Notes under the pieces: model-generated | Databases searched by the model: none | Seen by the model: the letters and a program-made list of their open reading frames with translations, nothing else | What the model was told of the DNA's origin: nothing | Position numbers and translations under genes: made by a program | In this document: one piece after another, positions 6,307 to 18,605 of the stretch | How the letters are laid out: each line of letters opens with the position of its first letter | How positions within the stretch are numbered: position 1 is the first letter of the stretch | Assembly (NCBI GenBank): GCA_030765785.1 | Contig: JAVCCC010000003.1 | Coordinates: forward strand, 1 to 46,164 | Length of the DNA: 46,164 nt | Direction of reading: 5' to 3' | DNA from: Candidatus Aceula lacicola | Lineage (GTDB): Bacteria > Omnitrophota > Gorgyraeia > Zapsychrales > Aceulaceae

Positions 6307-6621
6307 TTAAAGTGGTTTGATATCAATCTTCAAAGAATGACAGAAGTCAACTTTAAGAAGATTTGAGTCTTGGACAACATATGAAGTTCCTTTAACGCGA
6401 AGAGAAAATCGTTCTTCTTTGGTTATAGAATCATATGTCTTTCCAATATGATATTCTGGCTTTTGAATATTTCTAACTTTGCCAGATTGGTGGCTAACAA
6501 TGTAGACAAGAGTTTTTTGTGAAGAAATAGCGCAGCCGTCTCTTTCGGTTACTTCCCTTAAAGAGACAATCTTTCGCTTACGTTCTGCTGATGTTAAGTT
6601 TTTGAAAGCTATTTCTTTCAT
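6307..6621 (-). CDS. hypothetical protein, 104 aa, not recognised
   Basis: A 104-residue basic protein with no signal peptide or membrane segment and no family I recognise. The N-terminal third is helical and charged (KNLTSAERKRKIVSLREVTE). The rest looks like short beta strands (KTLVYIVSHQSG, RFSLRVKGTSYVVQ) ending in the hydrophobic-basic tail LKIDIKPL. Two cysteines are 64 residues apart and form no metal motif. An AAAGGAAG Shine-Dalgarno lies 5-8 bases before the ATG, which supports translation. It is preceded by a strong inverted-repeat leader (6640-6719), a predicted promoter and an operator-like palindrome, so it appears to be a separately regulated monocistron. A regulator or binding protein is possible, but I assign no function. 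Confidence 0.6.
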   Translation of the reverse strand: MKEIAFKNLTSAERKRKIVSLREVTERDGCAISSQKTLVYIVSHQSGKVRNIQKPEYHIGKTYDSITKEERFSLRVKGTSYVVQDSNLLKVDFCHSLKIDIKPL

Positions 6622-6639
6622 CGTTTCTTCCTTTTTTTG

Positions 6640-6719
6640 CGTCCCCTTTATGTAAAACCGAGTTGCTCTTGGCTTTGACCTCGGGCAACTCGGTTAGTCC
6701 TCCATGGCTGGTGGGGACG
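6640..6719 (-). promoter_or_regulatory. structured 5' leader of the 104-aa gene, unknown class
   Basis: Two nested perfect inverted repeats lie in the untranslated leader. The outer helix pairs 6713-6719 with 6640-6646 (CGTCCCC with GGGGACG, 7 bp). The inner helix pairs 6685-6695 with 6656-6666 (11 bp, AACCGAGTTGC with GCAACTCGGTT) and encloses an 18-base loop. A 17-base junction with CCATGGAGGAC lies on the 5' side and 9 bases on the 3' side. The outer helix ends about 10 bases before the Shine-Dalgarno. It is distinctly more GC-rich than its surroundings. I could not match it to a named riboswitch. A palindromic repeat element is the main alternative. Confidence 0.55.
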
Positions 6720-6769
6720 ATCATCAATGTCTAAATTCCTTATGTCCCGTGGCTTTTAAATCTATTGAA

Positions 6770-6797
6770 AGTATATCATCGCCATTATCAAAAACAA
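6770..6797 (-). promoter_or_regulatory. predicted promoter of the 104-aa gene
   Basis: Minus-strand TTGTTT (6792-6797), a 16-base spacer and TATACT (6770-6775). Transcription would start near 6763, giving a leader of about 140 bases that contains the whole folded element at 6640-6719. Confidence 0.55.
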
Positions 6798-6814: not shown

Positions 6815-6832
6815 AAAGAAAACGCTTTCTTT
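6815..6832. promoter_or_regulatory. operator-like palindrome, copy 1
   Basis: The near-perfect 18-bp palindrome AAAGAAAACGCTTTCTTT with a central CG lies 17 bp upstream of the -35 box of the 104-aa gene. Nearly the same sequence recurs in the plsY terminator (6955-6972) and at the cvpA promoters (25924-25939). The symmetry and central CG resemble LacI/GalR-family operators. The binding protein is unknown. Confidence 0.45.
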
Positions 6833-6952
6833 GAAACCAAGAAATTCTTATGTTCTCGTCGACAAACTAACGTCCTGCTTCCAAGAAATCAGAAATAAAT
6901 CTAATCTTTTTAAGAATAAATTAACCTTAAAGCTTGACATTTTAGGGAGGAT

Positions 6953-6984
6953 AAAAAGAAAGCGTTTTCTTTTCGAAAACGCTT
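6953..6984 (-). terminator. rho-independent terminator after plsY
   Basis: Minus-strand hairpin with a perfect 10-bp stem (AAGCGTTTTC, loop GAAAA, GAAAACGCTT) followed by TCTTTTT, starting 17 bases after the plsY stop codon. It closes the long yebC-plsY operon. Its 3' arm and tail contain the 18-base palindrome also found at 6815-6832. Confidence 0.85.
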
Positions 6985-7001
6985 AAAGATAAACTTTGAC
7001 T

Positions 7002-18209: not shown

Positions 18210-18260
18210 CTTGCGTTCCTCCCTTTTTTTATAATCGTTTTAATCGTTAAACAAACTTAA

Positions 18261-18605
18261 AAGAGCAGCCAATAAGCCGAGTTTTGTTTCCCTCGATTAT
18301 TTTATTGGCGAGGTGGTGATCATTCGACTAACTCTAGAAATTACTTTCCAGACTCTTGCGGCCTACCCGAGAATGATGACGAAACGGATCGCTTCGTTCT
18401 TGAAAAATCAAGATCTCCTCCTATTTGGCCTTGCTCCATGTAGAGATTGCGGCGTTTCACTCCCAGTAAAGGGCATCGTCACTGTAGCTCTAATCCTCCT
18501 CATCAAAAGATGAGTGTTCTGCGTTAACAGAATACATTATCCTCTGGAGCTCGGACTTTCCTCCCCAAAGCAAATCACTTCAGGGCGATCACTTAGGCTG
18601 CTCTT
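18261..18605 (-). ncRNA. rnpB: RNase P RNA (catalytic RNA of RNase P, bacterial type A-like)
   Basis: Read on the minus strand, this is the RNA that matures tRNA 5' ends. The conserved 5' core GGAGGAAAGTCCGAGCTCC lies at about 18541-18565. Other conserved blocks are the GAGCTACAGTGACGATG region, CCCTTTACTGGGAGTGAAACG, and the 3' core with the GGGTAGGCCGC block and ACTCGGCTTATTGG. The ends pair perfectly as helix P1 (AAGAGCAGCC with GGCTGCTCTT, 10 bp), fixing the boundaries to within a few bases. The 5' end overlaps the stop codon of the upstream RNase HI gene. Length is about 345 bases, within the usual range. Confidence 0.95.

Follow-up and report, generated by a model that had tools for sequence, protein, structure and literature searches.

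LacI-type operator promoter, structured leader and a recurring box upstream of a conserved 104-aa protein gene in Candidatus Aceula lacicola

A gene for a small basic protein of 104 aa in Candidatus Aceula lacicola appears to be subject to two stacked controls, to which a probability of about 0.5 was assigned, namely a LacI-type control of the promoter and a cis-acting leader that would be read after initiation by a trans-acting factor or ligand through a 5' box (AGCCACGGRA) and a conserved hairpin (H1). The window analyzed, i.e., the whole stretch of DNA considered here, comprises 46,164 bp, and all evidence is computational. Gene control in the uncultured phylum Omnitrophota seems to be hardly described, and no paper naming Omnitrophota together with a riboswitch or with c-di-GMP was found in a literature search. 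The locus joins a rigid LacI-type promoter, a box recurring before genes for c-di-GMP receptors (PilZ), and a conserved protein that belongs to no known family. Box and leader point to a layer of gene control not described so far. Should the box prove to be a true recognition site, control of the surface and c-di-GMP programme would become open to testing, and a protein family encoded in about half of the sampled phylum would receive a first functional hint.

The 104-aa gene and its LacI-type promoter

The gene order on the minus strand, with names given by sequence resemblance, is plsY, a terminator, the 104-aa gene (6307-6621) with its own promoter, and a yggS-like gene. Contig matches were obtained to relatives named Candidatus Omnitrophota, with Candidatus Aceula meridiana as a relative from the same genus. 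The gene had been called an orphan in the initial annotation, which proved wrong: homologues were found in 47 out of 54 order-level relatives and in 149 out of 285 sampled Omnitrophota genomes, nearly always in single copy. The protein has a pI of 9.7 (9.2-10.6 among all homologues read), and its predicted structure consists of six long beta strands (high confidence, pLDDT 93.7). Its description as a member of no familiar family was upheld, as no match worth naming was found in Pfam, PHROGs, NCBIfam or PDB, and the PDB fold search returned nothing at E < 0.015, with TM-scores reaching at most about 0.5.

The promoter, TTGTTT-N16-TATACT with an extended -10 (TGA TATACT), lies at 6770-6797 on the minus strand, exactly where it had been annotated (-35 TTGTTT at 6792-6797; -10 TATACT at 6770-6775). 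It is preceded by a palindromic operator of the LacI type, GAAAGCGTTTTC (6818-6829, minus). This geometry was found to be rigid: all 30 homologues read feature an operator that agrees with GAAARCGNTTYC at 10-12 of its 12 positions; a spacer of exactly 20 bases separates it from a TTGTTT-like -35, which is followed after 16-17 bases by an extended, TATACT-like -10. The operator is centred at -60.5 or -61.5. Control matches to the combined pattern amounted to zero in 54 genomes. Furthermore, at least one LacI-HTH protein is encoded in each of the 19 genomes examined, and exactly one in 17 of them. A palindromic, CG-centred operator and a genome-encoded LacI-HTH protein, two of the features expected of a LacI-family regulon, were both present. 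The 12-bp palindrome with its central CG and the distribution of LacI-HTH proteins (19 of 19 genomes, a single one in 17) are reminiscent of CcpA/LacI-type (cre-like) operators; however, the putative operator described here is centred at -60.5, ahead of an extended -10 promoter. An operator centre at -60.5 is a position typical of activation. Binding of the operator by a LacI-family protein and the direction of control are both suggested by these sequence features.

The only LacI-family HTH protein found in the genome of Candidatus Aceula lacicola has 334 aa (L080, C52:42056-42193, minus). It is nearly always present in single copy within the order and represents a candidate regulator of the operator promoters. 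The plsY terminator (gcgttttcgaaaagaaaacgc, window positions 6950-6990) was also noted to resemble the operator sequence GAAARCGNTTYC.

The combination of operator and promoter also precedes other genes, mostly those for secreted proteins, three of which lie behind genuine c-di-GMP-I riboswitches. Promoters of this kind (operator, about 20 bp, TTGTTT, 16-18 bp, TATACT) were recorded at L045, L047, L050, L052, L054, L055, L059, and L063 within the order; the genes behind them mostly encode secreted or surface proteins, and in some cases a c-di-GMP-I riboswitch lies in between. The rigid operator promoters are regarded as a candidate order-wide regulon. At L118, L126, and L063/L112, GCCACGG and a stretch of TTCTCGAAAAGG come after the operator promoters, and GCCGCCGAAAGAAG is common to L118 and L126; these leaders possibly represent another leader type.

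Structure and conservation of the leader

The transcript starts with a leader of about 142 nt (minus strand), in agreement with the roughly 140 bases estimated previously. Its GC content (0.465, rising to 0.587 in the H1-H2 region) stands out against the upstream spacer (0.311) and the window (0.367), as was already recognized in the initial annotation. Folding yielded -39 kcal/mol (z -3.35), a value equalled by 1 out of 200 shuffles. Four elements were distinguished, all on the minus strand. The 5' box, AGCCACGGGA (6745-6754), follows the consensus AGCCACGGRA and is found again downstream of further promoters and in candidate attenuators of PilZ genes. H1, GTCCCCACCAGCCATGGAGGAC (6697-6718), is predicted to form a GUCCCCA/UGG-A-GGAC hairpin with a 7-nt loop and holds a near-copy of the box, AGCCATGGA. 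H2 (6656-6695) is an 11-bp hairpin with the arms AACCGAGTTGC (6685-6695) and GCAACTCGGTT (6656-6666). In addition, an outer 7-bp helix is formed by CGTCCCC (6713-6719) and GGGGACG (6640-6646). The 7-bp and 11-bp helices were both located precisely as annotated.

For comparison, the leaders from four genomes of the window's own family were used (n = 4). The folded leader was present in all four of them, with lengths of 118-142 nt, and was confined to this family. Three elements are kept: the box, the 22-mer H1 (GTCCCCACCAGYCATGGAGGAC), and the hairpin H2. Nine out of ten box positions and 21 out of 22 H1 positions are invariant, as opposed to 0 out of 26 bases between box and H1, and the conservation of the leader therefore does not merely reflect recent ancestry. 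Homologues outside the family possess leaders of 15-88 nt with neither box nor H1, among which no common structure was seen. The initial annotation had held that homologues lacking the leader would speak against a regulatory RNA, and such homologues do exist outside the family; the leader was therefore added to an older gene at the level of the family.

When RNAalifold was applied to the four leaders, H1 and H2 were recovered unprompted, and the outer helix was not returned. In H2, three pairs have changed on both sides, and 97% of the alignment cells are paired, compared to 22-43% with the partners slid; this covariation comes from one divergent sequence and is reached by 21 out of 500 shuffles. 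H2 hence combines a conserved 5' UTR structure with compensatory changes, as expected for a structured cis-regulatory leader, albeit with weak numbers (three pairs, n = 4). H1 does not vary among the four genomes and hence offers no covariation; its predicted pairing is plausible. According to the initial annotation, compensatory changes in both helices would support a regulatory RNA; they were found in the 11-bp helix (three pairs), and the 7-bp helix is not conserved.

These results bear on the proposal of the initial annotation that the leader acts as an RNA thermometer or translational switch, the ribosome binding site being masked by the two nested helices of 7 and 11 bp. In Candidatus Aceula lacicola, neither helix contains a mismatch, and the fold is more stable than that of shuffled sequences. 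However, the outer-helix partner GGGGACG is absent in all three family relatives although H1 is invariant, and the Shine-Dalgarno sequence AAGGAAG (6627-6633, minus) lies outside both helices. Because there is no conservation of the outer helix, the part needed to sequester the region around the translation start, an anti-Shine-Dalgarno or thermometer mechanism lacks comparative backing and is considered very improbable. In contrast, the more general claim that the leader is structured and belongs to no named class gained support from its presence in 4 out of 4 family genomes, the compensatory changes in H2, and the absence of any Rfam family above the gathering threshold for this leader.

The conservation of H1 also permits another explanation, according to which H1 is a DNA site, i.e., a second operator downstream of the transcription start, rather than an RNA element. 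Perfect conservation without covariation would fit protein-bound DNA as well, and the 104-aa gene already possesses one putative operator. On the other hand, the inverted repeat of H1, with its bulged base and unequal arms, is unlike an operator, and the adjoining H2 covaries as RNA structure; a DNA site is therefore unlikely. That H1 belongs to a dispersed repeat was rejected, since every one of the four family genomes holds a single exact copy of the 22-mer; all other matches in the 54 relatives carry 3 mismatches. The two matches outside Omnitrophota in the genome_contigs collection (Caldilineaceae and an archaeon) lie antisense inside a dienelactone-hydrolase-like gene, and a match on a viral contig is located in coding sequence; these were discarded. 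Likewise, an upstream open reading frame starting from an ATG in H1 (ATGGAGGAC...) was dismissed on account of its reading frame not being conserved among the four genomes, and pairing between GGGA(C) of the box and (G)UCCC of H1 (5, 5, 4, and 3 bp in the four genomes) was too weak to be claimed.

The promoter is a feature in common with the c-di-GMP-I riboswitch (RF01051) and with its GGC variant (RF03167): promoters of this kind precede secreted-protein genes in relatives, and some of them drive genuine c-di-GMP-I riboswitches there (L050, L054, and L055). In addition, AAAGCCACGGG presumably resembles part of the c-di-GMP-I aptamer, which serves as a lead only. That the leader is a degenerate riboswitch of this class is, however, extremely improbable: the covariance model gave no match in the genome of Candidatus Aceula lacicola up to E 10, the highest score in a relative was 10.8 bits (E 9.9), the cut-off being 65.9, the tandem-hairpin aptamer was not seen, and no Rfam model scored above threshold for the present leader or for the PilZ leaders.

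Recurrence of the box upstream of PilZ genes

The box is not private to the 104-aa gene and follows other promoters in the window's own family. Searches for TATANT followed by AGCCACGGRA within 3-22 bases, performed with exact patterns and with reversed-pattern controls only, yielded 25 matches in 54 genomes, compared to 3 for the control. Twelve of the 25 matches fell into the four genomes of the family, and all matches for which the context was read are situated in leaders or intergenic regions. The box combined with a terminator was detected 51 times in 384 Omnitrophota genomes (2 control matches), the class-wide box count being an upper bound and in part background, because some matches have the appearance of ordinary terminators built on this stem. 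Hairpins of the form AGCC...GGCT are frequent as stems of terminators (AGCCNNNN...GGCT terminators), and the same octamer is also present in phage sequences and plain terminators, the MscL, PfkB, and phage loci resembling ordinary terminators.

Among the genes next to box and terminator, those for PilZ domain proteins (PF07238) were the most frequent (14 out of 28), hybrid histidine kinases accounting for 3 out of 28. In Candidatus Aceula lacicola itself, a PilZ gene is preceded by the box with an immediate terminator, AGCCACGGAAACCGATATCGGTTGCGTGGTTTTTT (L125/L170). Two relatives have a further PilZ gene with the box, where the hairpin is closed by a GUGGC strand directly adjoining the start codon and encloses a Shine-Dalgarno-like stretch; leaders of the form AGCCACGGRA...AAGTGGC-ATG with such an enclosed stretch were recorded at L115 and L150. 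At L120, in the divergent family member, the 5' strand stays AGCCACGGA even though drift in the partner strand has produced a mismatch.

PilZ genes with a terminator-like hairpin starting with AGCCACGG were recorded at L110, L120, L123, L125, L136, L139, L140, L143, and L144, as well as at L159, L160, L162-L166, L168, L169, L178, and L181. These hairpins, often located directly after the promoter and without an Rfam match in those scanned, represent a candidate attenuator family.

In PilZ leaders, the box supplies the 5' arm of terminators close to the promoter and, at two PilZ genes, that of hairpins holding the Shine-Dalgarno sequence, as known from intrinsic-terminator attenuators and Shine-Dalgarno-sequestering leaders. 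The leader of the 104-aa gene differs from these in that its box has neither a GUGGC partner nor a terminator or Shine-Dalgarno partner, and neither an aptamer nor an antiterminator site of a known kind was recognized. Neither the PilZ leaders nor the other box leaders matched an Rfam model above threshold. The 104-aa protein was also compared with the PilZ domain itself, of which it might have been a diverged version; this was rejected for want of profile similarity (hhalign E 0.44 over 5 columns).

Proposed mode of control and candidate readers of the box

According to the reading favoured here, a LacI-family protein, most likely the genome's single LacI-type regulator, would bind GAAARCGNTTYC at -60.5. 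The transcript, in the window's own family only, would then present the box at about +10 to +19, followed by H1 with the near-copy and by H2 near the start codon. Box and H1 may constitute the recognition site of a trans-acting factor, either an RNA-binding protein or a small ligand, which would determine what share of the transcripts is elongated or translated. Since the box serves as the arm of a terminator or of a Shine-Dalgarno-holding hairpin in sister leaders, mostly before PilZ genes, it is probably a shared input linking the 104-aa gene to the c-di-GMP and surface programme. Use of two expression platforms, terminator and Shine-Dalgarno-holding hairpin, is the behaviour of a shared recognition element.

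A simpler function, in which the leader is an mRNA stabilizer or an insulating pair of hairpins receiving no regulatory input, would agree with the H2 fold being kept while its sequence drifts and with the lack of a matching ligand class. It leaves unexplained why loop and stem of the 22-mer are invariant and why the box recurs at other genes, and is accordingly rated as quite unlikely.

Concerning the reader of the box, its CANGGAN appearance brought CsrA into consideration, which was discarded because csrA was found above the cut-off in none of 19 genomes and gave no match in that of Candidatus Aceula lacicola (95.7% complete). RfaH/LoaP-type antitermination was likewise rejected: each of the 19 genomes encodes exactly one NusG, and a second NusG-family protein was not found. 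The 104-aa protein itself could read the box and regulate its own expression through its leader, given that it is small, all-beta, and basic in all homologues read, and that the genomes with PilZ-linked boxes carry the gene, among those also covered by the homologue searches. Nevertheless, similarity to a known RNA-binding protein was not found, most homologues lack the box in their own leader, and the co-occurrence of gene and box is confounded by phylogeny, leaving such autoregulation with a slim chance. As a tentative and rather doubtful extension, AGCCACGGRA might be the box of an undescribed post-initiation control in Omnitrophota, acting on PilZ genes and, in this family, on the 104-aa gene, with the 104-aa protein as its possible reader.

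As a further structured RNA in the window, an ordinary bacterial class A RNase P RNA was located at positions 18258-18604.
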